A stretch of 64,000 nucleotides of DNA. Origin: a virus. Where the stretch lies: the IMG/VR virus record IMGVR_UViG_3300030419_008158, positions 124,001 through 188,000 of that record. One strand, 5' to 3'. Every line of letters starts with the position of its first letter. Position 1 is the first letter of the stretch. Of the stretch, positions 26,017 through 63,912 are shown piece by piece. Position numbers and translations under genes: made by a program. Under the pieces are notes generated by a model. It did no database searches, was not told the DNA's origin, and saw nothing but the letters and a program-made list of their open reading frames with translations.

Positions 26017-26237
26017 TTACTTCACCTCTTCTCTATAATAGAGATACTAATACATAAAGTACAAAAGTAAATGAACTTTCTTATAGATGATTCTTTAAGA
26101 AAATAATCTCTATAGAGATAGAAGATATCTTAAGAATCTCAGTCTCTTTCCCCGAGTCCAGGTTCATTTAAAGAATAGAAGCATTTCTATAAATGTTCAA
26201 AAAAAAATAATTATTTTCTAGAAATGATGAAAATTAC
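26017..26237 (-). promoter_or_regulatory. Palindrome-rich intergenic region between fibre genes and glycan island
   Basis: 221 bases with no ORF of note. Visible structures: TCTCTATAATAGAGA (26030-26044, 7-bp arms); GTTCATTTAC (26011-26020) pairing with GTAAATGAAC (26067-26076); GATTCTTTAAG pairing with CTTAAGAATC around a perfect 14-bp palindrome ATCTCTATAGAGAT (26106-26119); and short hairpins near 26175-26195. Transcription from the fibre genes enters here and the glycan string starts here, so a combined terminator and promoter or leader is likely. No GC-rich stem with U-tract is seen. AGAGGTG before the ATG is the ribosome-binding site for 24121-26016. Confidence 0.45.
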
Positions 26238-27683: not shown

Positions 27684-27697
27684 TTAGCCCTCCCAGA

Positions 27698-30955: not shown

Positions 30956-30970
30956 TTTATCTCTCCAATG

Positions 30971-38041: not shown

Positions 38042-38048
38042 ACTACCC

Positions 38049-38363
38049 TCAATAATTTGTTTCTACTACAAAAATATTATGTGACTGAACTACAAAATGA
38101 GAACCGCCGTCGTTGGTTTCCCTAGGCACAGCACTGACTGAGCCTGTGTGCGCTAACACTGTTGATGTGTTCATAACGCCGGAAGTAAATACGTTTATGT
38201 TACCGTATAGATTGCTGCCGTCTTCCAGGATATTTGTAAGAAGAGCAAAATTACCATCAGCTTTCATATCACGATCGGCTTTTAACACTCCTGAGACGAT
38301 TTTGTCGTCTCCCTGGCTAGAGGCTTTTTCTCCAGTATATACTGCAAAATTAAACAATCTCAA
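38049..38363 (-). CDS. Small structural-type protein before the fibre genes
   Basis: 104 residues, no recognised family. It begins with TTG (38361-38363) directly after the upstream stop, with AAGGTGGGA as ribosome-binding site. Sequence is beta-rich, with NINVFTSGVMNTSTVLAHTGS, which resembles pieces of the neighbouring fibres, and an alternative ATG (MKADGNFALL) further in. Position between a 112-residue structural-type protein and the giant fibre suggests a virion role such as a fibre attachment or cap protein; this is inference only. Confidence 0.6.
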   Translation of the reverse strand: MRLFNFAVYTGEKASSQGDDKIVSGVLKADRDMKADGNFALLTNILEDGSNLYGNINVFTSGVMNTSTVLAHTGSVSAVPRETNDGGSHFVVQSHNIFVVETNY

Positions 38364-38364
38364 C

Positions 38365-38703
38365 TTATCCCACCTTTATTGCCAAAACATCTACGTAGCC
38401 TGTGAAAGGTGCACTAGCGTATATTGTGACTGAAGTCGTCTTAATGTCTCCGGTTTTCAAGTACAGGTTGACGTTTGCACTTTCTTCTCCATCTTGTCGA
38501 GCAATTGCTTGCACTGCATAATTGGCAGGAAGCTGATATTCGAACTCAAGCGTTCCTGAATCTGTGTTGTCAAAATATATAGAACCTACTTCTATTGATA
38601 GATCCTGATCTCCTGAGAACGTCAAACGCTTGGGTGCTCGAATAAGTGGATACCTTTTAGAGTATCGATTTCTATCAATCAGTCTAGAACGCAGTTTTGC
38701 CAT
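38365..38703 (-). CDS. Small beta-rich structural-type protein
   Basis: 112 residues, not recognised. Very basic N-terminus (KLRSRLIDRNRYSKRYPLIRAPKR) followed by a predicted beta-sandwich with alternating hydrophobics (LEFEYQLPANYAVQAIAR). First gene of the fibre transcript: a GATATTTA motif and AGAGGTG ribosome-binding site stand upstream. May be a small virion or fibre-network protein. Confidence 0.6.
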   Translation of the reverse strand: MAKLRSRLIDRNRYSKRYPLIRAPKRLTFSGDQDLSIEVGSIYFDNTDSGTLEFEYQLPANYAVQAIARQDGEESANVNLYLKTGDIKTTSVTIYASAPFTGYVDVLAIKVG

Positions 38704-38719
38704 TGCACACCTCTGCGAC

Positions 38720-38727
38720 TAAATATC
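38720..38727 (-). promoter_or_regulatory. GATATTTA candidate late-promoter motif upstream of the fibre operon
   Basis: On the minus strand the motif reads AAGATATTTAGTCG, 16 bases before the ATG of the 112-residue gene. The same octamer is found upstream of three other genes in this window, with one variant copy before a fifth. No host-type -35/-10 pair is evident. Proposed as the site read by the gp55-like sigma factor. Confidence 0.45.
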
Positions 38728-38742
38728 TTGATGTAAGATTTT

Positions 38743-40044
38743 CTAGAGCAAATGAGATGCCTCTGATGCTATTGTTGATCTTATTCCAACGGGCAAGTTT
38801 ACGTGGCTTGTGTGGAGAGAGTCTCTTAGTTTTTTTGTAACCAGCGAAAGTCCGTTTGTATTTTTGTTGATGTATGGAGTGTCAATTTGATCTGTGTCAC
38901 CCATAAGAATAATTTTTGAACCTTCTCCAACTCTTGTGATAACTGTCTTGAGCTCATGAATTGTAGCATTCTGAGCTTCGTCCAAGATAATGTAGGAATT
39001 AGTAAAAGTTCTGCCCCGAATAAAACTCATGGGGGCAATTTCTATCAACCCATTGACTCTCATGAGATCCCAAGCTGATTTGTCTTTAAAATGATTTCGA
39101 AGATTGTCAATAACTGGCGCCATCCATGGAGTCATCTTTTCTGTCATGTCACCGGGTAAATAGCCTATCTCTCTTCCCACAGGTTGTAGATTTCTGGTTA
39201 TTACAATTCTTTCATATCGATTCTGCTGAACTTCTGAAATTCCCGCAATTAAACTTAAAAATGTCTTTCCGGAGCCCGCTAAGCCTGTCATAGTAAAAAG
39301 CGGGATTTTAGGATTTTGCAGAGCCCACATGGCAAATTTTTGTTCTTTATTTTTTGCCATGACAGGCAAAGGAGATCCACCCAACCTAATGTCATTATCA
39401 GGAACAAGAATCATTTTTCTTTCAAAAGCATCATAAACACAAAGTGCAGACTGCCCCGAAGGACTTTTCATGACGACAAAAGAATTAGGACTAAGATCGC
39501 TGTCGTAGGGAATTTGTTTTTCTTTGTACAGGGCATCTATCATTCCGTCTTCTGGTTGAACTTCAACAATACCAGACCAGTTGTCTTCAGGAAGATCGAT
39601 GTAGTCAGTATAATAATCTTCTGATGATAATCCTACTGCATCGCACTTCACCCTAAGATTGATATCTTTAGAAACAACTACGATTGATTTCTGTGGGCTC
39701 TCTGATTTCATCTGAAGGCCTTCTAGTAAAATCTTATTGTCACTATCATTGGGATTCAAAGGAAAGCTCTGTGGTATCTCTGGATGTACGAGACGAATCG
39801 ACAGCGTGCTATCGTCTCCCATAGGTACACCCTTATGAAGTGGGCCTGCAGACCTAAGATCATCTAACAATCGATTTGCGTATCTTGCGTTTTCTCCTAA
39901 TGATCCTTGCTTTTCCTTGAATCGATCCAGCTCATCTAGGACAACTAGAGGAATAACAACATCACATCCGGAAAAATTTTCGATAGCATTTTTATCGTAT
40001 AAGATCGCGCTAGTATCTAGAATTACAGTTTTTCTTTTTGACAT
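38743..40044 (-). CDS. phoH: PIN-PhoH protein (PhoH2-type ribonuclease/ATPase)
   Basis: 433 residues. Residues 1-145 are a PIN nuclease domain: VILDTSAILYD (Asp10), VVLDELDRFK (Glu38-Asp40) and VVVSKDINLRVK (Asp127) give the acidic active site. Residues about 225-433 are the PhoH ATPase: TGLAGSGKTFLS (Walker A, 253-264), YLPGDMTEKM, SYIILDEAQNAT (Walker B, 350-361) and ILMGDTDQID (sensor). PIN-PhoH proteins unwind and cleave RNA; phoH is a common auxiliary gene of marine phages. GGGAGAAAA serves as ribosome-binding site. It diverges from the small region-4 protein with only 42 bases between. Confidence 0.92.
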   Translation of the reverse strand: MSKRKTVILDTSAILYDKNAIENFSGCDVVIPLVVLDELDRFKEKQGSLGENARYANRLLDDLRSAGPLHKGVPMGDDSTLSIRLVHPEIPQSFPLNPNDSDNKILLEGLQMKSESPQKSIVVVSKDINLRVKCDAVGLSSEDYYTDYIDLPEDNWSGIVEVQPEDGMIDALYKEKQIPYDSDLSPNSFVVMKSPSGQSALCVYDAFERKMILVPDNDIRLGGSPLPVMAKNKEQKFAMWALQNPKIPLFTMTGLAGSGKTFLSLIAGISEVQQNRYERIVITRNLQPVGREIGYLPGDMTEKMTPWMAPVIDNLRNHFKDKSAWDLMRVNGLIEIAPMSFIRGRTFTNSYIILDEAQNATIHELKTVITRVGEGSKIILMGDTDQIDTPYINKNTNGLSLVTKKLRDSLHTSHVNLPVGIRSTIASEASHLL

Positions 40045-49005: not shown

Positions 49006-49442
49006 TATAGTTCTAGTTCCATCATTTTCTGCACCATAGACTTAGAAATGTTAATCTTAAGCTCTGTGGTAGAGAAATTATGATTTCTTTCAATAAAATA
49101 GACAGGTTTTTCGTAGTGTGCTCCAGTGTAATCTTCTCTGTCGCGATAGTCACTACCTAAAATTCTGACGTCGTAATTTTCCTGTCCCAGGACTTTGTCT
49201 AATTCTTTCTCTGTGTTATATGTGACAATCTTATCAACATAGCGAATTGACTCCAATATTTCAATTCTATCACTCAGGGATTGTACTGGCTTGCATTTTT
49301 CAGGCCTGTCGATAGTGGGATCCCCTTGAAGAGCAACAGTAACATTTTCACAAACGCTTTTTGCCTCTTTAAACATTCTAATATAGCCTGGATGAATTAC
49401 ATCAAACGAGCCACAAATAATTCCGCATGTATAAATTTTCAT
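49005..49442 (-). CDS. Cytidylyltransferase-like nucleotidyltransferase (TagD/RfaE type)
   Basis: Start at the ATG inside the clpP stop (ATGA); 145 residues starting MKIYTCGIICGSFDVIHPGYIRM. Rossmann-type nucleotidyltransferase: GSFDVIHPGYIRMFKEAK is motif 1 with HPGY instead of the usual H-x-G-H (the second histidine replaced by tyrosine). SLSDRIEILESIRYVD and NHNFSTTELK (ISSTxIR-like) are motif 2 and the C-terminal substrate loop. It would couple a sugar or glycerol phosphate to CMP or AMP. Whether the Tyr change lowers activity is not known to me. Confidence 0.8.
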   Translation of the reverse strand: MKIYTCGIICGSFDVIHPGYIRMFKEAKSVCENVTVALQGDPTIDRPEKCKPVQSLSDRIEILESIRYVDKIVTYNTEKELDKVLGQENYDVRILGSDYRDREDYTGAHYEKPVYFIERNHNFSTTELKINISKSMVQKMMELEL

Positions 49443-50059
49443 ATTATTGCATCCACCAGCCCTAGCTCCAAACATCTTTCAGAGGGTAACCAAAGCTCAT
49501 GCTTCAATAGCTCTTCAAGAGATTCTTCGTCAATCTTTGATGTTTCAAGATAAATTTTCTTTATTGTATCAAATATAACTTTTTGATTTTCTATTTCGTC
49601 AATAAACTCGTCATGCTTACCAGCCCATAAAATTTGAGGCTGATGGATTAGCATAAATGATCTTTTGCTAATATAACGTTTTTTACCTCTTGAAGATATC
49701 AATGTTGCCGCAGATGCAGCTGAGCCCTCAACGTATGTGTAAACATCAGTCTTGCATCTATCAATTGCATCACAAATATTTAGTCCAGAAAATACATCTC
49801 CGCCCGGACTTTGTATATGCAAATGAATGGGTGGATTCTTTCTAAGACCAATTCTTGCTGCTAAATAAGACATTTCTATGTCTAGACGTCTTATGATTCG
49901 AACTAATTCGAATGCTTCTTTATCTGTTACAGCTGCATAAAAATATATGTGGTTCTCTTCAACATCAATGCCGCTAGGTTTTCCTTTTTCTTCTGACATT
50001 AGCAAGGACGCAATGTTCTCACTCATCTCATCAGAAATCACTGCTTGATCTTCGTTCAT
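49439..50059 (-). CDS. clpP: ClpP-family serine protease
   Basis: Start at the ATG within the upstream stop (ATGA), 206 residues, the usual ClpP length; a longer reading adds 22 residues that overlap the previous gene. Motifs: IHLHIQSPGGDVFSGL (oxyanion segment), YTYVEGSAASAATLISS with nucleophile Ser116, and RSFMLIHQP with His139. The Asp of the triad is not clearly placed by eye. Phage ClpP-type proteins can be prohead proteases or host-like Clp peptidases. No AAA+ Clp partner is in the window. Neighbouring head-type proteins with L-x-E cut sites raise the prohead role as an option, although T4-type sites are normally cut by a gp21-type protease. Confidence 0.88.
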   Translation of the reverse strand: MNEDQAVISDEMSENIASLLMSEEKGKPSGIDVEENHIYFYAAVTDKEAFELVRIIRRLDIEMSYLAARIGLRKNPPIHLHIQSPGGDVFSGLNICDAIDRCKTDVYTYVEGSAASAATLISSRGKKRYISKRSFMLIHQPQILWAGKHDEFIDEIENQKVIFDTIKKIYLETSKIDEESLEELLKHELWLPSERCLELGLVDAII

Positions 50060-50502
50060 TCGGTAGAATCGTCGTCTATTTTCAGAAGAGGATAATCTCC
50101 GAATGACGTTTTTACTATTGCGCATTTTACTCCTTCAAAAGCGTTATTAGGTAGACTTTTTGCATTAATAATCAAAATTTCAAATTTAGCTGTAGTTGAA
50201 ATGTGATTTCTGTCATTATCTAGATTTGAAATTTTTGGAATACAAGTCGCCCGATAATAGTTCATCATTCCATCTTTCCAGATATTTGATGTTTCGTCTA
50301 CTTTTTCTCCTTGAAAGACTTTCCACACAGATGGATTTCTGTCAGAATAGTCACCGCAGCATAAAAAAAACCTTAGGTCATCGTAGAGATCATCTGGGAC
50401 ATCTGGAACATCGCCTACAGGTGTCATATATTGATACTCTTTTTCAACGACTAAAAGATCCAGCGGAGAAAATAAGTTTCGTATTTTTTCTAATTCGTTC
50501 AT
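50056..50502 (-). CDS. Hypothetical protein
   Basis: 148 residues, no recognised family. The middle is acidic (VGDVPDVPDDLYDDLRFFLCCGDYSDR), and the end alpha/beta. Coupled to clpP by a four-base overlap. It diverges from the plus-strand lipoprotein protease with 25 bases between; that short gap must hold both start signals. Confidence 0.55.
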   Translation of the reverse strand: MNELEKIRNLFSPLDLLVVEKEYQYMTPVGDVPDVPDDLYDDLRFFLCCGDYSDRNPSVWKVFQGEKVDETSNIWKDGMMNYYRATCIPKISNLDNDRNHISTTAKFEILIINAKSLPNNAFEGVKCAIVKTSFGDYPLLKIDDDSTE

Positions 50503-50527: not shown

Positions 50528-51316
50528 ATGAAAAAAAACTATATCAGTCTAATTCTATTACTAATGTGTCTTTTTTTCACACAATGTGGTGTACATGGAA
50601 AATACACAGGTCCCACTCCAGCAATTTACAAGCTTGTTGAAACCCAGACAGTACTTGTTGAAGTCACAAATACGATTACACCAACGCGGTGTGAAAATAA
50701 ATCTAATTTTGCAAAGAAAGAAGACCTTTGCTCAAAAGTTTTGCCCGAACTTCCACCCATACACGGATCACATGTGGGAACAGGAACATTTATCAAGTTG
50801 AACGATGAAATAGTTGTTTTGACTGCAGAGCATGTATGTGCCCCAGACGAAGTTCCGAAAAAAGTAGAAAAAGATGACGTAGTCGTTTATCCGACAATTG
50901 AAACAAAAATTGAAATTAAGTCGAGAATTTATACGGGTGTTGGCTCTGTGTTAAAAATGAGCAAACCTCTGGACATATGTGTTTTGTCGCTAGACGTCCA
51001 GCCTAATGTTTCTGTTCCTAACTTTTCAAGAAAACCACCCGAAAGAGGTGCTAGAATATACTACGCCGGAGCGCCGCAGGGGTTCATGTCGGATACTGCC
51101 CTAATGATGTTTGATGGAAGATATGCGGGAACCATGGGGAAAATGCTAGCATTTTCAATGCCCTGTGAGCACGGAACCTCAGGTGCCAGTGTTAGAAATA
51201 GTAAAAATCAAATATTTTCGATAGTGCAAAGAGTGAACGGTCAGTTCAAGCATATGTGTTACGGTGTTAGCACAGAAGAGATGATAAAATTCTTAAGTAC
51301 TATAAAGCCTAAGTAA
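50528..51316 (+). CDS. Secreted lipoprotein with trypsin-like serine protease domain
   Basis: 262 residues, plus strand. Signal peptide MKKNYISLILLLMCLFFTQC with a lipobox-like LFFTQC ending in Cys20, so the mature protein is probably lipid-anchored outside the cytoplasmic membrane. The chymotrypsin fold is indicated by GTGTFIKLNDEIVVLTAEHVC (His102), KPLDICVLSLD (Asp149) and EHGTSGASVRN (Ser218). Several extra cysteines could form disulfides. A phage-encoded lipoprotein protease would act in the host periplasm or envelope, for instance in lysis or superinfection exclusion (inference). It overlaps the convergent 51309-51599 gene by eight bases. Opposite orientation to almost all neighbours suggests its own promoter and timing. 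Confidence 0.82.
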   Translation: MKKNYISLILLLMCLFFTQCGVHGKYTGPTPAIYKLVETQTVLVEVTNTITPTRCENKSNFAKKEDLCSKVLPELPPIHGSHVGTGTFIKLNDEIVVLTAEHVCAPDEVPKKVEKDDVVVYPTIETKIEIKSRIYTGVGSVLKMSKPLDICVLSLDVQPNVSVPNFSRKPPERGARIYYAGAPQGFMSDTALMMFDGRYAGTMGKMLAFSMPCEHGTSGASVRNSKNQIFSIVQRVNGQFKHMCYGVSTEEMIKFLSTIKPK

Positions 51317-53590: not shown

Positions 53591-53598
53591 TAAATATC
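53591..53598 (-). promoter_or_regulatory. GATATTTA motif upstream of the HAD-like gene
   Basis: Minus strand reads GAGATATTTAGCAAAC, 29 bases before the ATG at 53561. It overlaps a palindrome TCTCCGGAGA. Same octamer as before the fibre operon, the 494-residue gene and the cysteine-rich gene. Confidence 0.45.
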
Positions 53599-53687: not shown

Positions 53688-53801
53688 TCATTCGCTTCTT
53701 TTATGAGTGTTTCTATATATTGTCGCAAACAATGAACCAGAGAGCTTTTTAGCAGCCTCTGTGATCAATTCTATGAAAGCGTTCCTGCTAGCTTGTTCCA
53801 T
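53688..53801 (-). CDS. Possible 37-residue helical peptide
   Basis: An ATG 28 bases inside the 3' end of the 354-residue gene opens a frame of 37 codons, MEQASRNAFIELITEAAKKL... ending in the 53562-53770 gap. The peptide is an amphipathic helix with an I-T-E-A site, resembling the targeting helices of neighbours. The ribosome-binding site is weak, so it may be non-coding. The rest of this 209-base gap holds the promoter motif, a 10-bp palindrome and nothing else I can identify. Confidence 0.3.
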   Translation of the reverse strand: MEQASRNAFIELITEAAKKLSGSLFATIYRNTHKRSE

Positions 53802-54835
53802 CTTTCAAGAAGAATATTTCCGCTGTTTCTTGTTCGCGACTCAGTTTTAGTCTTATTACCCAAAGCGTTGCCGATGGCAGTCAAGAATTTAAGAGTCTTC
53901 TGGGGATCTCCTAAAGCTTGCAAGTTTACTTGCCCGGCAGTTCCCATTGAAGCAGATGGATCATTGAACATGGTGGCAGCCCATCGATGGTGACCATCAA
54001 GAATCTCTCCGTTGGTGCCTGCCCAGGCGTCTAGATCTCCACCTGCTATTTGATTTTTAGGGTTCATTGCCATACCCAAAGCTTTGTAAATAAGAATATT
54101 AGACTGTGTAGGAATAGCGTCAGAAGCATTAAGCGATCCCCCCGCTTTTATTTCGATCTTGTCGTCTGTGTCATCTCCGTCATCAAGACCTGCAGTCATA
54201 AACTCTTTTGCACCTGGCGCATCCATGCCGACAAATTTATTTGGCGGAGGGGGCTCACCACCTTTGAGGTTAGAACTTTCTTCTTTTTCCTCTTCTTGCT
54301 CCATGAGAGCGCGCGCGCCCACCTTCCATGCTGCCTCCTTGAACGGAGCAGTAACATCAATATTATAGTCTCCGCCCGGTGTAAGAGCGTCTTCAACGTC
54401 AGAAACTTCCCCCTTAGCATCTTCGGGCCCGGGTAAGAAAGGCATGACACTTTTTGGTAATCCAGTGGAAGGAATTTTGGAAGCTAATGTGTTTAGGCGC
54501 TTGACAAACGTTTCAGGGCCAATCTTTTCAATCCATTCCTTAGCTTGCGCACCGTTAGTTTCATACCACTCGCCTTTCGTAATAGCTACGATTGGTGCGT
54601 CATCATCCCCAGAAAGAAGTTGGTTTGCGATTTCAACAGCATCTACATCTTTTACATTCGTCGTCTTATCAACCGAGGTTCCCTTAGGAGCATCTCCAAT
54701 TTTTCCAGATGCTTCTTTTTTCTCCTGGCCTTCCTCTTCTTGCTCAAAAAGAATCTTACTTAATTTCGGCAATTGGCTTGATGTGTCTTCATTTATGACA
54801 TGTCTTACTATTCTTCTTAGGTCGCTTTTCTTCAT
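53771..54835 (-). CDS. ParB/sulfiredoxin-like DGHHR protein with targeting-type N-terminus (paralogue 1)
   Basis: 354 residues. N-terminal KKSDLRRIVRHVINEDTSS is a basic amphipathic helix followed by an I-N-E site and an acidic spacer. The core has DDKIEIKAGGSLNASDAIPTQSN and ILDGHHRWAATMF (about 279-291), the 'DGHHR' motif of ParB-, SerK- and sulfiredoxin-fold proteins that bind nucleotide. The C-terminus is LLERWNKLAGTLS. The following gene to the right is a paralogue over the DGHHR region. AGGGAGAAAA is the ribosome-binding site. Possibly an enzyme carried in the head and injected, as T4 Alt is (inference). Confidence 0.65.
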   Translation of the reverse strand: MKKSDLRRIVRHVINEDTSSQLPKLSKILFEQEEEGQEKKEASGKIGDAPKGTSVDKTTNVKDVDAVEIANQLLSGDDDAPIVAITKGEWYETNGAQAKEWIEKIGPETFVKRLNTLASKIPSTGLPKSVMPFLPGPEDAKGEVSDVEDALTPGGDYNIDVTAPFKEAAWKVGARALMEQEEEKEESSNLKGGEPPPPNKFVGMDAPGAKEFMTAGLDDGDDTDDKIEIKAGGSLNASDAIPTQSNILIYKALGMAMNPKNQIAGGDLDAWAGTNGEILDGHHRWAATMFNDPSASMGTAGQVNLQALGDPQKTLKFLTAIGNALGNKTKTESRTRNSGNILLERWNKLAGTLS

Positions 54836-54876: not shown

Positions 54877-56361
54877 CTAGTCCTGAAAAATTCCTGCCAG
54901 CTTTTGCCAGCGTTCAACAATCAAGTTATCTTTTTCTAGATTTGATTCTTTCTTAAAGGGCGGGACAACATTATACTCACCGGCAGGAAGCCCTTTTTCA
55001 ATTTTTGCCAAACCTGAGGAGCCTCCAATAGACTCGTGATCTAACTGCGGCATATCTTCTCTAGATTTTGGCGCGCCATCTAGCGGTTGAGGCAGAGATC
55101 CTAAATTTTCTCCCACTTTGCTGGCAATTGCTTTTCTGATGGGGTCGTTTTCAAATCCTGTTCCTGAGTCTGCCAAAGAGACAAACTCTTCATCTCCTGT
55201 TAGACCGGCCCACTCATTTATTTTAGGGTGCTTTCCGTCTGCAATTGACTTAATCATAGCATCATTCAGCAGCGGCCCCGGGGCCTTTTCATCAGTCTGC
55301 TTACCTTTGTTTGCGTCTATCATGGCAACAATTGCATCTTTGCTTTTTCCGATGATGTCAGTTGCTGCTCCACCTCCTTTTGATGGATGCTGTCCGCTAT
55401 CATTGACAGCGGCAACTGCAAGCTGCGCTGCTGCCAGCTTATCAGCCACACTCCCGGGAAAACCAAAATCTTTTGCATTTATCGATCCGTCCGGCGTAAT
55501 AGCAAAAACGCCCGACCAGCGATGATGTCCGTCCAAAACAGCATTTCCGGAAATAGATATCGCTCCTGGTGCACCAGAAGTCTTGCTGGTAATTGCACTT
55601 TCTAGAACTTTTGCACTTCCTAAAGGAAATGAAACAGATTGCATCAAATCAATGAACTGCTGCGTAGGTCCTAGACTGCTTACGCTCACAGGAGTAGCAC
55701 TCCCTACTGTAATCTTATCATCCGGCTCTGCACCGTCATCAGCTTCAGCAGCTTTGACAAGAACATCCTGAACACCCGGGTCTTTATTTCCTTGTGCATC
55801 CATGAATGCTCGAACCCCCTCAGGTCCTGCTTTATATGCTGTTTCAAGATCTTTTCCTGGATCGCCAGTGACCTCTGGAGATTCTTTTTCTTCTTTGTCT
55901 TCTTGTTCAAAAAGGTTTCTCATTTCTGAGAGAATTATTTTTCGCAAGTCTTTGCTGTCAATTTTCTTAGTAGGTTTTGTAAAACCCAATGCTTCAGAAA
56001 GTGTAATTTTTCCCATGAATTTATTCTCCATTCTTCTTCCCATACCCGACCTTGTTGGCAACTCAATGTCATACTCACCTGGCATTAAATCTTGAATTCT
56101 ACGTTCCATTTCAATGTATTCTAGGTCTTGTATCACTTGTTCTTCTCGGGCACGATTAACAGCAGCGTATTCTTCCCAAATTTCATCTACAGCGGATTCT
56201 GCCTCTTCCATTGTTTCGAACATTGGAATTTTAGGTCGACGACCGTACAATTCTTTGTACATGTCAGAATACATGCCACCCAAATCTTGCAACTTTTGAT
56301 CATACTCGGCGTCTGCTGTGTCTCTAGGGTGCAATTCTCTAATAAGTTTGCTCAGGTGCAT
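54877..56361 (-). CDS. DGHHR protein with N-terminal extension and internal targeting-type helix (paralogue 2)
   Basis: 494 residues from the ATG with AAGGAG six bases upstream (MHLSKLIRELHP); a GTG five codons earlier lies within the Shine-Dalgarno region. Residues 1-115 are a helical charged domain. Near 116 is MGKITLSEALGF, then IDSKDLRKIILSEMRNLFEQED, a targeting-type helix with L-S-E and L-F-E sites. Its ATG (56013-56015) has GGAG nine bases upstream, so internal initiation is possible. The rest parallels the 354-residue gene: DDKITVGSATPVSVSSLG, AVLDGHHRWSGVF and a terminal IVERWQKLAGIFQD. A fused pair of genes is suspected. Confidence 0.65.
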   Translation of the reverse strand: MHLSKLIRELHPRDTADAEYDQKLQDLGGMYSDMYKELYGRRPKIPMFETMEEAESAVDEIWEEYAAVNRAREEQVIQDLEYIEMERRIQDLMPGEYDIELPTRSGMGRRMENKFMGKITLSEALGFTKPTKKIDSKDLRKIILSEMRNLFEQEDKEEKESPEVTGDPGKDLETAYKAGPEGVRAFMDAQGNKDPGVQDVLVKAAEADDGAEPDDKITVGSATPVSVSSLGPTQQFIDLMQSVSFPLGSAKVLESAITSKTSGAPGAISISGNAVLDGHHRWSGVFAITPDGSINAKDFGFPGSVADKLAAAQLAVAAVNDSGQHPSKGGGAATDIIGKSKDAIVAMIDANKGKQTDEKAPGPLLNDAMIKSIADGKHPKINEWAGLTGDEEFVSLADSGTGFENDPIRKAIASKVGENLGSLPQPLDGAPKSREDMPQLDHESIGGSSGLAKIEKGLPAGEYNVVPPFKKESNLEKDNLIVERWQKLAGIFQD

Positions 56362-56382
56362 GATTTTCTCCTTCACTAGCAG

Positions 56383-56390
56383 TAAATATC
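56383..56390 (-). promoter_or_regulatory. GATATTTA motif upstream of the 494-residue gene
   Basis: Minus strand reads GCATGATATTTACTGC, 21 bases before the ATG at 56361, with AAGGAG between. It lies in the short gap after the MopE/VWA lipoprotein gene. Confidence 0.45.
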
Positions 56391-56405: not shown

Positions 56406-58499
56406 CTACTCAGGATTGCAAATCTCAGAAAGAATTTGCATTAAAGAGCCGTACATTTGTGTAGCGTTGCTAGACAGTTGAAAATACTCACCTGAACATG
56501 TGGAAGCAATTTCATCCCACTCCCATGATTCGTTAGTAGAAAAAGTGTATATCTTGGTTTTGGGCGCACTGATACAAGCATTTTTTATCTGCTCTACAGA
56601 AATCTCAGGTATCATGTAGCTTTGCTCTTCTTCATCGCTGAACACGATAATGATTTTATCAGCAGTCGGTCTCCAGCCAATTGTAAACACGTCTTTTGGT
56701 GGGATTGACTCACCGACATCTGTGTCCCACTCTGTTGCACTCATATCCATGTTTGCACCAGAAGAAATATTATGCAAAGACAAGTATATTCCATCAAGAA
56801 GCATCTCACTTCCTGTGTTCATTCCGTCGCTTCCAAGCGCAGCAAATGCTGCTAGAAAGTCCGGAAAGGGTGCAATATCTGACACTAGAATTAATCTTTC
56901 TTCAAATTCTCCTGCAAGTTGTTTCGGACCAACAATAAGACCCCAGTGTAACTTATCTTCAAGGGAATAGTAGGCAGCAAATTGATTTAATGCAATTAGA
57001 ACAGCTTCGATTTCATCAATCATCGAGCCAGACCAATCGATAACAAAAAGAATATCAGTTTCTGGTACTTCTTTTCCCCAGTCAACTTGTCCATCACAGT
57101 CATCATCAATTCCGTTACATTCTTCCGGCTTGGGTAGTACTTGATCTGCGCACATATTATCGATAAAGATATTATCTGACGTGTATGAACCCCAGGATCC
57201 CATATTGCACGTCATATTGCCTGCTTCGCAGATTCCTATGCCTAAAGTACCCTCTGGGCCTGTGTAACAATCTGCAATAAGACCCTCATCAATAAGAGTG
57301 TTGCAGTTGTCATCAAAGTTATTACACTTCTCTTCATTTAGAGGCATACCGACCAAGGAGTCACAAGCTGGGTCTGAGCCGGGAGGATCAACTAGCCAGT
57401 GGCAAATAGCGTAGCAAGGTGATAGAACAATCTCTTCACACCCAGGATCATTACAAAGACATGTCTTATATCCCTGGCCGCACAAGAGTGGCGGCTCAAA
57501 ACAGGGTAGAAGCTTTCCAACGTCTTGCACTGTGCATAGACACTCTATTCCATCGTCTATCAAGCCGTTACAATCGTCATCAAACCCGTTGCAAATCTCA
57601 GGCATTGGTTGCTTGGCTGTGCAACCACTCCAGTTTCCTGCGACGCAGACTTTGACCCCGACACCACATGCCGTGCTACACTCTTCTATTAGCTCATCAT
57701 CAACAAACCCATTGCAATCATTGTCGATCCCGTCGCATTCTTCAGCCGGAACTGCTCCGCACTCATCGCATGCGTTTCTTTGACCTTCGTCAATTTCACC
57801 ATCACAGTCATTGTCTGCATAATCACAAATTTCTTCTTGAGGTATGGGCCCGTAACAGACAAAGACACCGTCTTCACATATGGCATTCCCAGGCCCACAC
57901 TCATTTTCACAGGGTTCCACACCGATATCTTCGTCTGTAAGGCTATCACAGTCATTATCTTGTCCGTCACAAATTTCTTCTGTGCAGTCTTGACAGTCTG
58001 AAAAGTAAAGCTTGCCCTTGTCACAAACAACGTTTTGTTTACCGAGGGACCCATCTTCCATTTCACAATACTGCCACCCATAATCTAATGTCTGTGCACC
58101 TGGAGGACACTCGTATGCTTCGTAACATTCTCCCATAAAAAGAATTTGAGGTGGATCACATTCGTTTATTCCTAGAGGTTTACAAGGAACGTCTGAATCG
58201 TGACAAAAGTTTAGAACGACCTGCTTCTTCTCCATTGTAGGTTCACCGAATACAGGTGGACAAAACCATTCTTGTGTTTCACAACACTGAGGTTTGCAGC
58301 TGCACCACATAAACTGATCCTCTATTGTGATAGTTGCACAGGGATCTACATCTTCGGGAGGTGTGTCTGGTGTGTCGACATTCCTGGGATCTGTATCTAT
58401 TACAACTTGTGTGCTAGAAACATCTACCGGACTGCCACGGTCGTCGGCACAACCAACAACAAATAATAACGTAAGCGCCAGTGAGACAATTTTATTCAT
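56406..58499 (-). CDS. MopE-like calcium-repeat lipoprotein with C-terminal VWA domain
   Basis: 697 residues. Signal peptide and lipobox MNKIVSLALTLLFVVGC (Cys17). Six repeats of the MopE/'CDGxDNDCDGxxDE' type: EEICDGQDNDCDSLTDE, EEICDYADNDCDGEIDE, EECDGIDNDCNGFVDDE, PEICNGFDDDCNGLIDD, EKCNNFDDNCNTLIDE and EECNGIDDDCDGQVD, presumably calcium-binding and disulfide-rich. A VWA domain starts near residue 480 with DILFVIDWSGSMIDE (MIDAS DxSxS). These proteins are frequent in Myxococcota and relatives. In a phage, an exported adhesin or host-surface mimic is plausible. No Shine-Dalgarno is obvious; TATAAT lies 12-17 bases upstream. Confidence 0.85.
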   Translation of the reverse strand: MNKIVSLALTLLFVVGCADDRGSPVDVSSTQVVIDTDPRNVDTPDTPPEDVDPCATITIEDQFMWCSCKPQCCETQEWFCPPVFGEPTMEKKQVVLNFCHDSDVPCKPLGINECDPPQILFMGECYEAYECPPGAQTLDYGWQYCEMEDGSLGKQNVVCDKGKLYFSDCQDCTEEICDGQDNDCDSLTDEDIGVEPCENECGPGNAICEDGVFVCYGPIPQEEICDYADNDCDGEIDEGQRNACDECGAVPAEECDGIDNDCNGFVDDELIEECSTACGVGVKVCVAGNWSGCTAKQPMPEICNGFDDDCNGLIDDGIECLCTVQDVGKLLPCFEPPLLCGQGYKTCLCNDPGCEEIVLSPCYAICHWLVDPPGSDPACDSLVGMPLNEEKCNNFDDNCNTLIDEGLIADCYTGPEGTLGIGICEAGNMTCNMGSWGSYTSDNIFIDNMCADQVLPKPEECNGIDDDCDGQVDWGKEVPETDILFVIDWSGSMIDEIEAVLIALNQFAAYYSLEDKLHWGLIVGPKQLAGEFEERLILVSDIAPFPDFLAAFAALGSDGMNTGSEMLLDGIYLSLHNISSGANMDMSATEWDTDVGESIPPKDVFTIGWRPTADKIIIVFSDEEEQSYMIPEISVEQIKNACISAPKTKIYTFSTNESWEWDEIASTCSGEYFQLSSNATQMYGSLMQILSEICNPE

Positions 58500-58563: not shown

Positions 58564-59967
58564 TTACACTTTGATTCTATCAATTGTCTGTGGATAGCTT
58601 ACAGCAATATCTTTGTAAAGCTTCTTCATCACTGCTTTCGTAATATTTGCCAGCTCTTCTTTTGTTGCTTTGTTCTTAAGAATTTTCTCTACTTCTGTCT
58701 TGATGGTTTTTTGCAGATCTTTTCCAACAACTTTTGTAATTTCTTTTTGTGCTTCTTTTCTAGAAATCCTTTCGATTTCTTTCATGTCTGTTTTGGTAAA
58801 TTTTTCTACCAAAAGTATCTCTCTTACATGTCTTCTAAAGCGAAGCTCTTCTTGGATATAGCTTTGAGCAATTCGACTATATCCTGCTGCAAGCCTAAGC
58901 TTTTGTTCGGGAGGTTGTTCTCTAGACAACCCTAGTTTATCAATGATAAGGGAGATCACTTCTTGCATGTCATCTCTAGTCAGACCCCTAACATACGCTT
59001 TTACTTGCTGCATAAATTGTTTTCTGTCAGCCGGCTCAGCAAACGCTCGATCCTCAGACCCAACTGTTTTCATTAGATTTTTTGCAGTTTTTTCGAAAAG
59101 TTGATCCGGATCCATAACTTCCAAAGATGCTATTTGAGATCCTGCGCCCTCAGTTTGACCACCTTCAGAGTTTTGACCATCCGACCCTAAAATTATCTCC
59201 ATATTCTTCTTGTTTAGGCGCCCATCAGACATGCCAAGTTTTTTTACTAGCTGCTTCTTGACTGCTTTAATAAGATCGTCAGCATCAGCCGGCTTTTTTG
59301 TAAGAGCATCTAAAAGTCTGTTTCGAAGATTTTCTAAAGGTTTACCCTGGGTTATCTCTACGGGTTCTTGTGGAAGATGTTTTACGATATTGTTTACAAC
59401 TCCCTCTCTGCTGATTGGTGCAGTCACGTGCCCCCAACGAATTATAACATTTTCGTCGTTTCCAGTTTTTATGACCCCGATATTACCTAGCATTTTCTTA
59501 TCAGGTTCTTTTATGATAAGTGCAAGAATAGATTCAATTTTTGGCGAGGAGCTTGATGTGGCTGCAGAAAAATTATCGTCTGCACGATATGAAGAAAAAG
59601 AAGACTTGACAGAATAGTAAACACCGTCCTTATCAGCATCATAAAAAGTTGTGACACCTGCACTACCTTGATCTTCTACACCAAAACCCCAAAACTGGAG
59701 CATTTTTTCGGCAATTGACTGCCACGCATTTTTATTCCCGCTCTCAGTCGCAACAGAGTGAACTAATTCATTGAATACCAGAACCTCTGAAAGCAGCTTA
59801 TCAGCGTCACCAGCTCGGGCAATATTCTCAGCGTATTTTGGTATATTGATATCGTATGCTACTGGAATATCAACACTGACACTCCCAGCAGCGCCTGCAT
59901 CCATTTTCAATACTTTTTCGGATAAGATTACATTTCTTATCCAAGACTTTAAGAGCCTCTTTTTCAT
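58564..59967 (-). CDS. Large protein with targeting-type N-terminus, function unknown
   Basis: 467 residues from the ATG ten bases after GAAGAG, giving MKKRLLKSWIRNVILSEKVLK; the longer reading intrudes into the upstream gene. The N-terminal helix and I-L-S-E site resemble the other targeting peptides. Residues 30-250 are alpha/beta with a FYDADKDGVYYSVKSSFSSY segment; 'D..K.G..YSVKSS' recalls PD-(D/E)XK-type cores (D...VKSS) but this is only suggestive. Residues 330-467 are long charged helices (coiled-coil). Probably a packaged or scaffold-like head protein. Confidence 0.55.
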   Translation of the reverse strand: MKKRLLKSWIRNVILSEKVLKMDAGAAGSVSVDIPVAYDINIPKYAENIARAGDADKLLSEVLVFNELVHSVATESGNKNAWQSIAEKMLQFWGFGVEDQGSAGVTTFYDADKDGVYYSVKSSFSSYRADDNFSAATSSSSPKIESILALIIKEPDKKMLGNIGVIKTGNDENVIIRWGHVTAPISREGVVNNIVKHLPQEPVEITQGKPLENLRNRLLDALTKKPADADDLIKAVKKQLVKKLGMSDGRLNKKNMEIILGSDGQNSEGGQTEGAGSQIASLEVMDPDQLFEKTAKNLMKTVGSEDRAFAEPADRKQFMQQVKAYVRGLTRDDMQEVISLIIDKLGLSREQPPEQKLRLAAGYSRIAQSYIQEELRFRRHVREILLVEKFTKTDMKEIERISRKEAQKEITKVVGKDLQKTIKTEVEKILKNKATKEELANITKAVMKKLYKDIAVSYPQTIDRIKV

Positions 59968-59968
59968 T

Positions 59969-60565
59969 TTAGAAAAGCTCTTCATTTTTTGGGTCATGCT
60001 TGACCAGAATCTTCTTCATAACAGCAACTTGTTTATCTGACATGCGTCTGCCGGATTTCATTTGATCTGCGAGGCTTTGCAAGAAATTATTGGTCTTAAC
60101 AGACAGGTAATCTTCGATAGCTGCTAATTGTTTCCCTCTTACAGAGCCGGCCATTGGAGGTATATTTTTTCTTCGCCTCCATGGCGGACTAGTCCCGAGA
60201 TAAGTCTCACCACCATATTTTTGACCAAAGGCTGCACCTCTGCGCGATACGTTACCTTCATCATCGTAGATATTACCCTCGGCGTCGACGTATTGTTCGT
60301 ATTCCAGCAGCATTAATTCACGACGAACAATGCGTCGAAGTTCATTCTCAGAAAGAAGTGGTTCTTGAGCTGGAAGAGACTCCGGAGATTTTGTAGTAGC
60401 TTCAGACCCTACAGCCTTTGAGTGATCTATGTCTAACTCTAGATTTTTTGCTGTACCCTCAATGTCTCCGGACCACGCATCTTCAACGGGCTCCACATCA
60501 GAAGGGTGTTCTTCATCTAGCATTTCTAAGATAATTTTTTTGAGCTGCTTTTTTGTAATTTTCAC
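59969..60565 (-). CDS. Targeting-peptide protein, unknown function
   Basis: 198 residues. The start is the GTG at 60563-60565 with GGAG eight bases upstream, giving MKITKKQLKKIILEMLDEE, a clear member of the shared N-terminal peptide series (I-L-E-M cut site). A second such helix, SENELRRIVRRELMLLEYEQY, follows near residue 75-95 with L-L-E-Y. The C-terminal 60 residues (LAAIEDYLSVKTNNFLQSLADQM) are helical. Packaged head protein suspected. Confidence 0.65.
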   Translation of the reverse strand: MKITKKQLKKIILEMLDEEHPSDVEPVEDAWSGDIEGTAKNLELDIDHSKAVGSEATTKSPESLPAQEPLLSENELRRIVRRELMLLEYEQYVDAEGNIYDDEGNVSRRGAAFGQKYGGETYLGTSPPWRRRKNIPPMAGSVRGKQLAAIEDYLSVKTNNFLQSLADQMKSGRRMSDKQVAVMKKILVKHDPKNEELF

Positions 60566-60581
60566 TTTAGAATCTCCATTC

Positions 60582-60920
60582 TTAAATAAAGGCACCTAGT
60601 TCTATTTCGGTTGCTCTGTCTTCTGCCCACTCCTCTATGTCGAGTGGACCGATAAAGCCGTTCTGCGGGGGTGTGTAGTCAAGCCATGTTCGATTCGGGG
60701 CACCGGCGCGCTGTGCTAGGTCGTCTAGATCTTCAAATCCAAGACCTCTCTGGTCCAGCCACTCTCCCCAACCATGCATGAGCTTCTCGTCCGTTTTTTG
60801 TTCACCCTCCCCACCGGGTGCATAGTAATCTTCTTCACCGGGAGGAGCAGAGAAATCTCTATCATCATCGGCCCATGCTTCCCTGATGATTCGCCTGAGC
60901 TGTCGCTTAGTGATTCTCAT
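60582..60920 (-). CDS. Targeting-peptide protein, unknown function
   Basis: 112 residues starting MRITKRQLRRIIREAWADDD. The rest is acidic (GEEDYYAPGGEGEQKTDEK) with aromatic residues, and no family is recognised. SD GAGGCAG before the ATG. The shared peptide and position put it in the internal head-protein series. Confidence 0.65.
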   Translation of the reverse strand: MRITKRQLRRIIREAWADDDRDFSAPPGEEDYYAPGGEGEQKTDEKLMHGWGEWLDQRGLGFEDLDDLAQRAGAPNRTWLDYTPPQNGFIGPLDIEEWAEDRATEIELGAFI

Positions 60921-60924
60921 ATGA

Positions 60925-61149
60925 TCATCTGCCTCTGCGCAAGACTTTAACAGTTACGCCCTTGACATCACCGGTCATAATATAAAGTTCGCCGGGTGCA
61001 TCACCTTTTTCAACAGTTGCCACCCCTTTGTTTATTCTATTCTGTAAATCAGCTGCCAATCTTTCTGGAGTCTCCTCCAGATCAGGTAAGTGACTTGCAT
61101 CTAGCATTTCCTGAATGATTTGTTTTAGCTTTTTCTTTGAGATTTTCAT
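60925..61149 (-). CDS. Targeting-peptide protein, unknown function
   Basis: 74 residues from the ATG sharing one base with the upstream stop (TAATG), MKISKKKLKQIIQEMLDASHL. The reading from 61251 would overlap the upstream gene by 100 bases. A short beta-rich C-terminal region (GELYIMTGDVKGVTVKVLRRGR) follows. Unknown function. Confidence 0.65.
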   Translation of the reverse strand: MKISKKKLKQIIQEMLDASHLPDLEETPERLAADLQNRINKGVATVEKGDAPGELYIMTGDVKGVTVKVLRRGR

Positions 61150-61412
61150 TATCTCATCCTCTGAATTTTTTCTAACATTAGATTCTTGCATTCTCTCTTG
61201 ATTCCGGGTGAGCGAAAGCTGCCACCAATACGCACAGCCTCGCTGATACAATGCTGGATCAGTTCGTCGATGGACATTTCAACATGTGCTAAGAGGTCTG
61301 ATCTTGCTTCATCTTCATCAGCAGAGATTGTGCCATCAGGATTCATTTCATTGAGAATCTTGACTTTCTCTTCTTTAATAATTCTTCTGAGTTGCTTCTT
61401 TGTGATTTTCAT
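61149..61412 (-). CDS. Targeting-peptide protein, unknown function
   Basis: 87 residues, MKITKKQLRRIIKEEKVKILNEMNPDG; the helix is followed by I-L-N-E-M, an L-x-E site. The remaining part is helical with three cysteines (HCISEAVRIGG, ECKNLM). SD GGGAG before the ATG. Confidence 0.65.
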   Translation of the reverse strand: MKITKKQLRRIIKEEKVKILNEMNPDGTISADEDEARSDLLAHVEMSIDELIQHCISEAVRIGGSFRSPGIKRECKNLMLEKIQRMR

Positions 61413-61414
61413 TG

Positions 61415-62140
61415 TTATCTCCCGCTAACCTTTCTATACATCGCCTTATGAAGAGAATTAACCATAGGTTCAAGGTCTGTCCCGTACAACACAGGCATAA
61501 CCCTGTCTTCAAGATCATAAATGGCTTGTTGTATTTTTGCGTTATTTTGAAGTTCGTATTGCTCTGCGTTGGCGTCTTCTTGTAGCTCTTCTTTGATAAT
61601 TCTTCTGAGTTGTCGTTTTGTGATCTTCATTCTGTTTTTTCCTTCAATCTTATATTCGTCGCGACCTACTTCAAAATCTTCATCATCTGGCTCTTCGATG
61701 CCAGCGGCTATAGCCTTTTTGTTTTCTACATCCGCTACGGGGGAATCATCAGCGACGTAACCCACACCAGTATTACTTGCAGGTGAAACGTCGTATGGAG
61801 GTTTCGGTGCCGGATTCTTACTGAGTGACGGGTGTCCGGCATAGAGGCTCCAGTCGATTGGCTCGTCGACAGGCACCTCTACTTTTGGGCCGAACCTTTG
61901 ATTATCCGGATGGTAGTTATCCTCCGCGACGCCTCGGGCCGCCTGGTCAGCGGTTTGAAACATATGATTTAGAGACCCAACTCCCATAAACGGCCGGCCC
62001 TGCGCCTTGCCCAGCCAGTCGGTGGCCGCTTGTTTTGACCCCTTTGCCGGCCAGAATGGTGCGTGCTTATCTCGCCTCTCGAGAAGACGGGCCTTCTCTT
62101 CTTTGATGATTCTTCTGAGTTGTCGCTTTGAGATTCTCAT
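61415..62140 (-). CDS. Double targeting-peptide protein (apparent in-frame fusion of two genes)
   Basis: 241 residues. Starts with MRISKRQLRRIIKEEKARLLERRDKH. A complete second copy, MKITKRQLRRIIKEELQED, begins at residue 171, and its ATG (61628-61630) has an AAGGA-type site nine bases upstream. The first half has aromatic and proline-rich loops (APFWPAKGSKQ, PAPKPPYDVSPAS), the second is a 70-residue helical domain. It looks like two tandem genes joined by stop-codon loss, with the second start perhaps still used. Confidence 0.65.
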   Translation of the reverse strand: MRISKRQLRRIIKEEKARLLERRDKHAPFWPAKGSKQAATDWLGKAQGRPFMGVGSLNHMFQTADQAARGVAEDNYHPDNQRFGPKVEVPVDEPIDWSLYAGHPSLSKNPAPKPPYDVSPASNTGVGYVADDSPVADVENKKAIAAGIEEPDDEDFEVGRDEYKIEGKNRMKITKRQLRRIIKEELQEDANAEQYELQNNAKIQQAIYDLEDRVMPVLYGTDLEPMVNSLHKAMYRKVSGR

Positions 62141-62143
62141 TAT

Positions 62144-62344
62144 CTATGCTTCTGCCTCTATAGTACCTTGTTCATATCCAGCATCATACGCCTGTGGATA
62201 TGTTGAGCGATCAGCATCGTTTGGATACCCCTGATAAGCATCATCATACCCGCGATCGTACTCTTGATCTTCATCCCTGTTGGGGCTCATCATTCTAATC
62301 TCTTCCTTGATGATCCTTCGCAGTTGTCGCTTGGTGATTCTCAC
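62144..62344 (-). CDS. Targeting-peptide protein rich in Tyr/Asp repeats
   Basis: 66 residues from GTG (SD AGAGGA), MRITKRQLRRIIKEEIRMMSP, then an acidic/aromatic segment with repeated YDxGY units (YDRGYDDAYQGYP, YPQAYDAGYEQG). No family known. Same N-terminal peptide series. Confidence 0.65.
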   Translation of the reverse strand: MRITKRQLRRIIKEEIRMMSPNRDEDQEYDRGYDDAYQGYPNDADRSTYPQAYDAGYEQGTIEAEA

Positions 62345-62357
62345 GGTTTATCCTCTT

Positions 62358-62966
62358 TTAAGCTCTAAAGGCATCTCGAACATAGTCGGTTGCGTAGTCA
62401 ACGGCAGATTCCTTTTCGCCCTCAGACTCGGCGTACTCAATATTAGCAAGGGCATCGAGTGCCTCATCAACCTCAAACCCCGTACCCAAGTTTCGAACCA
62501 TGTCTTCCAATTGAGCCAATGTTGCTGAATCGTTAGGGTTTCGTGATAGCTTGCTCAGCAGATCACTAGCTTGATCGTAAGTTGCTCGGCCACCAGATCG
62601 ATTGTCGTCTACTACGTCCTGCACAAATGCGATCATTTGGTCAATAGGTTGTGATGGAGTATCAGAGTCTTCTTCGGAAACTGTGTGATAGCCTGCAGCT
62701 TTAAGAGTGTTTAGCGACTGCAACTGTGCTTCAACACCGTCACGGGGCACCGGGCCGCCACCAAACTGCCTAGCAACATCATCATCGGTCATTGCGACGT
62801 TATTTCCGTCTAGATACCAAAAACCCTGTGCTAAATCAGCATGACCCTTTTTGTCCATCTGCTCCATCAATCTTCTGCGCACAATTCTACGAATCTTCTG
62901 CTCAGCCAGAACTTTGGCTTTCTCTTCTTTGATGATTTGTCTTAGTTGTCGCTTGGAGATTTTCAT
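62358..62966 (-). CDS. Targeting-peptide protein, unknown function
   Basis: 202 residues, MKISKRQLRQIIKEEKAKVL followed by A-E-Q-KIRRIVRRRLMEQ; two L-x-E-Q sites (L-A-E-Q and L-M-E-Q) are seen. The remainder is a helical acidic domain (DQMIAFVQDVVDDNRSGGRA, SDLLSKLSRNPNDSATL). Unknown function; SD AAGGA. Confidence 0.65.
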   Translation of the reverse strand: MKISKRQLRQIIKEEKAKVLAEQKIRRIVRRRLMEQMDKKGHADLAQGFWYLDGNNVAMTDDDVARQFGGGPVPRDGVEAQLQSLNTLKAAGYHTVSEEDSDTPSQPIDQMIAFVQDVVDDNRSGGRATYDQASDLLSKLSRNPNDSATLAQLEDMVRNLGTGFEVDEALDALANIEYAESEGEKESAVDYATDYVRDAFRA

Positions 62967-62981
62967 GTTGTTTTTTCCTTC

Positions 62982-63371
62982 TTACGTCATCTCGACAAAT
63001 TCGTCAAAGTCACCAGCTGCGTAAGGATCACCCCCTGCATACCAGTTGACAAACCAGTCCTTGAGCATTCCAACATCACCCGCGACGTCGAGCATGCTGT
63101 ACCCGCTTGGGCCGGTCCCCCTGTCTGTAAATCTCAGACCACGATATCGGGGGTTTCTTGTCATCTGCTTGAATGGACCACTCTCATCACGTATTTCCCC
63201 GTGTTCGTCCATCATGTCTAGGCCTCGAATTATTCCCTGTTGACCGGTTGGCTCAGCTGGTCCTCGCATCTTGATAGCTTGTTCAGCGATACGACGGACC
63301 TTCTGTTCAGCCAGGACCTTGGCTTTCTCTTCTTTGATAATTCTTCGAAGCTGTTTCTTTGTGATTCTCAT
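62982..63371 (-). CDS. Targeting-peptide protein, unknown function
   Basis: 129 residues from the ATG overlapping the upstream stop (TAATG), MRITKKQLRRIIKEEKAKVL, with L-A-E-Q then KVRRIAEQAIKMRG. AGGAG lies ten bases upstream. The C-terminal half is aromatic and glycine-rich (MLKDWFVNWYAGGDPYAAGD). The longer reading from 63401 lacks support. Confidence 0.65.
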   Translation of the reverse strand: MRITKKQLRRIIKEEKAKVLAEQKVRRIAEQAIKMRGPAEPTGQQGIIRGLDMMDEHGEIRDESGPFKQMTRNPRYRGLRFTDRGTGPSGYSMLDVAGDVGMLKDWFVNWYAGGDPYAAGDFDEFVEMT

Positions 63372-63784
63372 TAGAAAAAAGCTCCTATTATGTTTAGCCA
63401 TGTGTCAAGGGTAAATCTGTCGCCGGCATCTGGGTCCATTTCGTCCGCAAGCTCATCGTCCCTGACATGCGTTACACCGTATGTGGATCTAAGCCAGTTG
63501 GCCAGCGCGACATGATCAGCCTTTGAGTCCAGATCTCCTTCCCACCAGACTGTCTTAATGCCTGGCTTGAGCTCAGGATGTGAGTCTGGGTATTGAATTA
63601 CAATACCGGAATTTTCAAGAGTACCAAGGCCGCTGGGAGGCGATCTGTAGTCTATCACTAGTGTTTCACCACCAGCCTGCTCCAATAGTTTCCTGCGGAC
63701 AATTCGACGGACCTTCTGCTCAGCCAGAACTTTGGTCTTCTCTTCTTTGACTATTCTTCTAAGTTGTCTTTTTGTGATTTTCAT
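63371..63784 (-). CDS. Targeting-peptide protein, unknown function
   Basis: 137 residues starting MKITKRQLRRIVKEEKTKVL, followed by L-A-E-Q and RRKLLEQ (L-L-E-Q). A compact alpha/beta domain follows (TLVIDYRSPPSGLG, TVWWEGDLDSKADHVALANW) ending in a hydrophobic LDTWLNIIGAFF. The ATG is chosen because AAAGGA lies seven bases upstream; the longer reading would overlap the cysteine-rich gene. Confidence 0.65.
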   Translation of the reverse strand: MKITKRQLRRIVKEEKTKVLAEQKVRRIVRRKLLEQAGGETLVIDYRSPPSGLGTLENSGIVIQYPDSHPELKPGIKTVWWEGDLDSKADHVALANWLRSTYGVTHVRDDELADEMDPDAGDRFTLDTWLNIIGAFF

Positions 63785-63795
63785 TCTGTATCCTT

Positions 63796-63912
63796 TTATG
63801 CTACGTTGCACTTGCCCAGGCAGCTCTCACACGAGCAACAACCGCAGCAGCAGCAGCAGTGTGAAGATTTAAATAAGTTGCGTAGACGATGAAAAAATAG
63901 ATTTGCTGACAT
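63796..63912 (-). CDS. 38-residue cysteine-rich microprotein
   Basis: ATG (63910-63912) with AGGAG eight bases upstream and a GATATTTA motif 33 bases upstream. The protein is MSANLFFHRLRNLFKSSH then CCCCCGCCSCESCLGKCNVA: ten cysteines in the last 20 residues, five of them in a row (19-23). The N-terminal half is a short basic amphipathic helix. No known family; possible metal-binding (zinc or iron-sulfur), disulfide-linked or lipidated product. Its stop precedes the next gene's Shine-Dalgarno. Too short for most gene finders. Confidence 0.65.
   Translation of the reverse strand: MSANLFFHRLRNLFKSSHCCCCCGCCSCESCLGKCNVA

Follow-up and report, generated by a model that had tools for sequence, protein, structure and literature searches.

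A predicted envelope lipoprotein with MopE-type repeats and a VWA head, encoded by large uncultured phages

Why would a large phage carry a gene built like that of a bacterial surface protein? The question is raised by a 64-kb stretch of viral DNA (hereafter the window), comprising bases 124001–188000 of a linear IMG/VR record of 284,429 bases, in which a minus-strand gene at 56406..58499 encodes a lipoprotein signal, six MopE-type repeats and a von Willebrand factor A-like (VWA) domain. As judged from its sequence and that of its relatives, the product is almost certainly an envelope lipoprotein encoded by a long-standing phage gene, whose family extends over hundreds of phage contigs.

The gene has an ATG start and encodes 697 aa, matched by relatives over the full length. 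The protein opens with a signal peptide and lipobox (58449..58499, minus strand; residues 1–17) consisting of the hydrophobic MNKIVSLALTLLFVVG and a lipobox-type cysteine, Cys17 (58449–58451), as recognized by pattern only. In an alignment of 30 phage relatives, this cysteine is invariant and follows a hydrophobic stretch in 30 of 30, and the next position holds S, A, T or N in 28 sequences and Asp in none. In E. coli, Asp following the lipoprotein cysteine is the inner-membrane signal, so by that rule these proteins would be sorted to the outer membrane. An N-terminal cysteine-rich domain follows (57984..58352, minus strand; about residues 50–172), in which C72, C80, C99, C125, C131, C145, C159, C169 and C172 are invariant across the 30-relative alignment, as are dozens of cysteines elsewhere. 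The total of 55 cysteines points to an oxidizing compartment, that is, to a location outside the cytoplasm. Between this domain and the C-terminal head lies a cysteine-rich stalk of six MopE-type (D-x-D-x-D-G-like) repeats (57072..57977, minus strand; residues 175–476) of the form CDGxDNDCDGxxDE. The pattern C[DN]xxD[DN][DN]C[DN]xxxD matches six times (residues 177, 225, 255, 303, 392 and 461) and not once in 2000 shuffles of the protein, and the stalk reaches 61.6 bits (cut-off 27) for PF11617 (MopE), a repeat family that includes Methylococcus capsulatus MopE and MopE-related proteins from Myxococcota. MopE is reported as calcium-stabilized, and the copper site of MopE* is formed by His132, His203 and kynurenine130 (PMC3423442).

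The C-terminal VWA domain (56409..57071, minus strand; residues 477–697) was delimited from a structural model, structural alignment and a 32-sequence phage alignment. Its MIDAS motif, DWSGS (57024..57038, minus strand; residues 488–492), contains D488, S490 and S492 (D-x-S-x-S), which are invariant in the alignments of 30 and 32 phage relatives; D622 and E565/D569, as sequence positions only candidates for the metal ligands of the other loops, are also invariant among the 30. Pfam VWA scores 14.6 bits, under its cut-off of 23.8, and a sequence-profile search of the PDB gave no match. AlphaFold2, supplied with the 30-row phage alignment, returned a mean pLDDT of 83, about 95 in the VWA domain, with a pTM of 0.41 that makes the arrangement of stalk and head in the model unreliable. 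Structural alignment of the modelled head to VWA domains of integrins and TFIIH gives Z 15.6–17.5 over 174–191 residues, with 8–17% sequence identity to solved VWA structures, and its neighbours in Foldseek and VIA-align searches are integrin I-domains, ANTXR/CMG2-type VWA domains, pilus adhesins (PilB and SpaC of bacteria among the Foldseek matches) and TFIIH p44. The invariant DxSxS, the confident model and these Z scores make the VWA assignment firm despite the sub-cut-off Pfam score. Fold and DxSxS are thus shared with adhesive integrin I-domain and VWA proteins (Z about 16 over about 188 residues), whereas the low identity, the MopE-type stalk and the nature of a phage-encoded lipoprotein set the protein apart from integrin beta subunits and pilus adhesins. 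The best structural match among viral models is BFVD A0A516KYY5 (E 5e-19, 25% identity, 318 columns), which differs in being an unannotated viral protein of only 266 aa. An earlier note on this DNA had described an exported 697-residue lipoprotein with six repeats and a MIDAS-bearing VWA domain, and the open reading frame, lipobox pattern, PF11617 score and intact DxSxS all bear this out.

The family is large and diverse among phages. A single-protein search yielded 10 related viral loci, of which seven match across most of the protein or all of it, and a profile built from eight members found 444 confirmed IMG/VR relatives. Among the best 80 of these 444, which were retained, nearly all are near full-length, and the order is lipobox, cysteine-rich N-domain, 5–8 repeats and VWA. 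Our own gene calls gave 89 homologues with a lipobox N-terminus, usually 5–8 repeats and a C-terminal VWA with D-x-S-x-SM, a few being shorter or incomplete. Identity among the highly diverged phage relatives is 37–54%. No match was found when 50,697 GenBank phages were queried with three diverged members, no PHROGs family matches the protein, and we found no description of a phage MopE-VWA protein in the open-licence literature; the family appears absent from GenBank phages and PHROGs, and hence has been invisible to annotation so far. Twelve of the 14 long records with the gene (11 of 13 when the window's own record is set aside) encode a T4-type gp23 and a gp21 (S77) protease, and the remaining two (L007 and L008) have neither. 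The protein has no full-length counterpart in the GenBank phages or bacteria searched and is known from uncultured environmental phage contigs, mostly T4-type among the long ones.

Its distribution is uneven. In one clade, defined by a single-stranded DNA-binding protein (SSB) identity of at least 68% and tested at loci with at least 9.9 kb of downstream DNA, the gene is present in 8/8 testable loci, six of which were seen directly while two (L309 and L358) are contigs already scored as L144 and L116. Among the viral loci found with the gp32-like SSB nearest to the window's, 0/80 show the gene within the flank, and a whole-record search of 15 records with an SSB similar to the window's gave a strong match in one. 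The gene is therefore fixed in one clade and patchy elsewhere, and SSB-related long records without it show that it is not universal. Phage surface lipoproteins are usually regarded as small accessory genes; here, one of adhesin-like build is found at every testable locus of a clade and across hundreds of contigs.

The window's record belongs to a large T4-type phage, as indicated by a T4-type gp23 (215 bits), a gp21-type S77 prohead protease (91.8 bits) and a gp32-type SSB (39.4 bits). The earlier note had placed the MopE-VWA gene among head genes, a placement that does not hold, as its flanking open reading frames match no head family and gp23 and gp21 lie about 100 kb away. The flanking frames resemble leader-peptide proteins of the same phage. 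Upstream, across a gap of 64 nt, is a 477-aa protein (58564..59997, minus strand) with no Pfam family above cut-off, and downstream is a 499-aa protein (54877..56376, minus strand) with a DGHHRW motif. DGHHRW also occurs in the protein adjacent to the latter (53771–54835, minus strand) and recalls ParB/sulfiredoxin-type enzymes, with no Pfam match. A leader like MKITKRQLRRIIKEE opens 23 proteins of the phage and MKLLREYIRxLL opens six, compared with 2/171 and 0/171 proteins in a control using an internal stretch of the same proteome. Leader-peptide proteins also lie at 59969–63811 (minus strand) and elsewhere in the record, and L005 is among the relatives with a similar series. Given the T4 gp21-type protease in the genome, the leaders look like capsid-targeting peptides cut after I/L-x-E, in which case many of these proteins would be packaged.

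In the record, the coding strand holds 21 copies of the motif GATATTTA and the opposite strand two, mostly 7–45 nt ahead of start codons (including 53591–53598 and, ahead of the downstream neighbour, 56383–56390), and copies precede several probable structural genes. We consider it a candidate phage promoter motif, unlike the T4 late promoter TATAAATA, which stands ahead of 1/240 genes and so is not in use here. Many other genes here are preceded by GATATTTA, which is absent upstream of the MopE-VWA gene.

In one phage clade, the gene has a different, fixed setting. About 43–53 loci share a fixed one-strand block of SSB, RecA-like, helicase, ribonucleotide reductase, GroES-like, thyX and MopE-VWA genes, with thyX overlapping MopE-VWA by about 3 nt, followed by an unknown protein of 262–273 aa, dnaE and, further on, dUTPase and guaB; Pfam supports the names SSB, GroES and ThyX, and the remaining names are our reading of the sequences. 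A setting between thyX and dnaE, among replication rather than lysis or tail genes, fits action before lysis.

Several co-located genes encode exported proteins. An exported, lipoprotein-like HExxH protein with a HELVH-type motif is encoded near the MopE-VWA gene in 11 loci and in L207, beginning at or just past its end in several (including L129, L149, L172, L178 and L207). This HELVH...DxDHEG family (record positions 240223–240846, plus strand; L129:12124-12741; L207:12749-13504) has no Pfam match and is possibly a metallopeptidase family; the homologue in the window's genome lies about 58 kb from the MopE-VWA gene on the other strand. A secreted lytic transglycosylase (SLT, 65.6 bits) is encoded just upstream of MopE-VWA in 13 loci. 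Within the window, an exported trypsin-like protein with a lipoprotein-like N-terminus (50528..51316, plus strand; Trypsin_2, 34.6 bits) has its His, Asp and Ser motifs present, and homologues occur in six other MopE-VWA loci, giving seven with the window.

Locus L024 of the same record encodes a second VWA lipoprotein (418 aa; record positions 224785–226041, minus strand, outside the window). This copy has no MopE repeats, but its lipoprotein-type N-terminus, N-terminal cysteine domain and VWA head are all retained. Among the aligned relatives, the L179 protein is closest to it (43% identity), it too sits among leader-peptide proteins, and further two-copy genomes were seen (L006, L012 and L112). 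Retention of N-domain and head in a repeat-free copy marks the head as probably the working part, and suggests that head and N-domain do the work while the repeats would set reach or stiffness.

What might such a protein do? Surface display, as suggested by the earlier note, is plausible, and the protein may be a receptor mask or an adhesin. We tentatively favour, at somewhat short of even confidence, a protein that would sit on the surface of the infected cell and bind in a metal-dependent way, its purpose probably being superinfection exclusion or a remodelling of that surface; a superinfection-exclusion or surface-masking function, taken by itself, is a similarly provisional assignment. The infected cell would make the lipoprotein, acylate it and sort it to the outer membrane, where a stalk made rigid by metal ions (calcium) and disulfides would keep the VWA head clear of the membrane, leaving its MIDAS metal to engage a ligand. 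That ligand would most likely be a structure on the surface either of the infected cell or of a phage arriving there, in which case the gain would lie chiefly in superinfection exclusion or in some related alteration of the cell surface. Such binding at the surface is consistent with the lipobox cysteine in 30/30 relatives, never followed by Asp at +2, with the invariant MIDAS D-x-S-x-S, with a confident VWA model akin to ligand-binding integrin I-domains and with 55 cysteines suited to an oxidizing compartment. Conservation of the protein at 37–54% identity and in 8/8 loci of one clade, the replication-gene setting, the second copy that keeps N-domain and head, and the export of co-located gene products argue in the same direction. 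Against it, the window's gene lies among leader proteins resembling capsid cargo rather than in a host-takeover block, several SSB-related long phage records do without the gene, and a VWA domain can be a pure assembly scaffold, TFIIH p44 being among the best structural matches. Size is a further objection, the protein having about 700 aa while superinfection-exclusion lipoproteins are generally small; T5 Llp is a phage-encoded example, and proteins of its type would be alike in proposed role only, as phage-made envelope lipoproteins acting on receptors. A bolder and somewhat unlikely version sees an integrin-like, phage-encoded surface receptor with a metal-switched head on a stalk, whose ligand would decide who binds or enters, which would work with the phage-made exported peptidases and transglycosylase and would be a core gene of a widespread uncultured T4-type clade rather than an occasional moron. 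If displayed on infected cells, the protein would offer a handle on host-surface control by large uncultured T4-type phages and a marker for finding their hosts.

Other roles at the cell surface would use the same architecture. The protein could be a plain adhesin, attaching infected cells to one another, to particles or to prey and shifting where progeny are released, and its build is like that of metal-dependent adhesins, with integrin I-domains, PilB and SpaC as Foldseek neighbours. CglB of Myxococcus xanthus, an outer-membrane surface VWA lipoprotein, is an adhesin (PMC12288465), its likeness to the phage protein being by description alone, as a surface VWA lipoprotein; Myxococcota VWA lipoproteins of about 400–430 aa share only the MIDAS segment with the phage protein, at 22–28 bits. 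We regard this role as unlikely, the thyX–dnaE position in the main clade not suggesting a late dispersal function. Less likely still is a scaffolding role in breaking down or remodelling the envelope, in which the VWA head would recruit the exported transglycosylase, HExxH peptidase and trypsin-like peptidase at the outer membrane: the genes do adjoin or overlap, with the transglycosylase just upstream in 13 loci and the HExxH gene at or after the end in several, but each partner occurs in a fraction of loci, and the window's HExxH homologue is distant and on the other strand.

The two readings that would take the protein away from the infected cell's surface, or deny it a phage function, fare worse. 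A virion component or packaged protein would suit the capsid-targeting-like leaders of the neighbouring proteins, both in the window and near the second copy, but a signal peptide and lipobox stand in place of such a leader and 55 cysteines need an oxidizing compartment, making this reading very improbable. The least credible is recent capture of a host (Myxococcota) gene with no special phage role, close to the earlier note's view of a probable origin in the host lineage. Myxococcota are rich in MopE repeats, and VWA and MopE do occur there in one protein, although such cellular proteins are mostly far larger and mostly have the VWA ahead of the repeats. Across 84,980 bacterial and archaeal species genomes, the cellular relatives kept (the best 80 matches of a single-protein scan, which alone covered phyla beyond Myxococcota) match mainly the repeats and are mostly from Myxococcota. 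No full-length orthologue was found in the bacterial genomes searched, matches being to the repeats or to the opening portion of a generic VWA domain; a 'MopE-related protein' encoded on a Sandaracinus plasmid aligns with residues 175–497, and no MopE-type cellular protein was found to combine N-domain, repeats and such a C-terminal VWA. Most phage members score 190–325 bits with the VWA profile, whereas 379 genomes from the Myxococcota phylum, which holds the Myxococcales MAG of L084, give no more than 38.5 bits. That maximum is itself locus L207 (G236:C1:15001-34863), whose 34.9-kb contig otherwise has genes like those of the phages studied here and is thus probably phage DNA binned with a bacterial genome; outside this contig, no cellular VWA match in the 379 genomes exceeds 36 bits. 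Repeat searches centred on G011 and G017 cover largely the same genomes of the same phylum with the same three matches and add nothing independent. In codon use and GC3 the gene is typical of its phage genome, which argues against recent capture, and 34 of 36 phage rows cluster in one group of a VWA tree with modest support and long branches. With two changes the phage group is not strictly single, so we claim strong clustering rather than monophyly.

These comparisons bear on the host as well. The earlier note took the architecture to be typical of Myxococcota and relatives and the best clue to the host; the repeats are indeed common in that phylum, but full-length relatives were found only in phage contigs, an outcome that the note itself had named as weakening the clue, and the clue is accordingly weak. 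With the SSB profile, a host search gave one weak match in the 379 Myxococcota-phylum genomes and no match among 380 from the Magasanikbacteria phylum (the latter without a positive control), which is too little to assign a host. Two faint hints of Myxococcota come from the repeats and from the single phage-like contig binned in a genome of that phylum.

Some features of the window stand apart from the MopE-VWA gene. A tRNA scan of its 64 kb found none, and GC content at about 26000–39000 is about 45% versus about 38% on both sides. Beside the gp21-type protease, the phage encodes two ClpP-like proteases (window 49439–50125 and record 36505–37107, both minus strand), and in about 27 other loci the MopE-VWA gene is followed, about 9 kb further downstream, by a ClpP-like gene.
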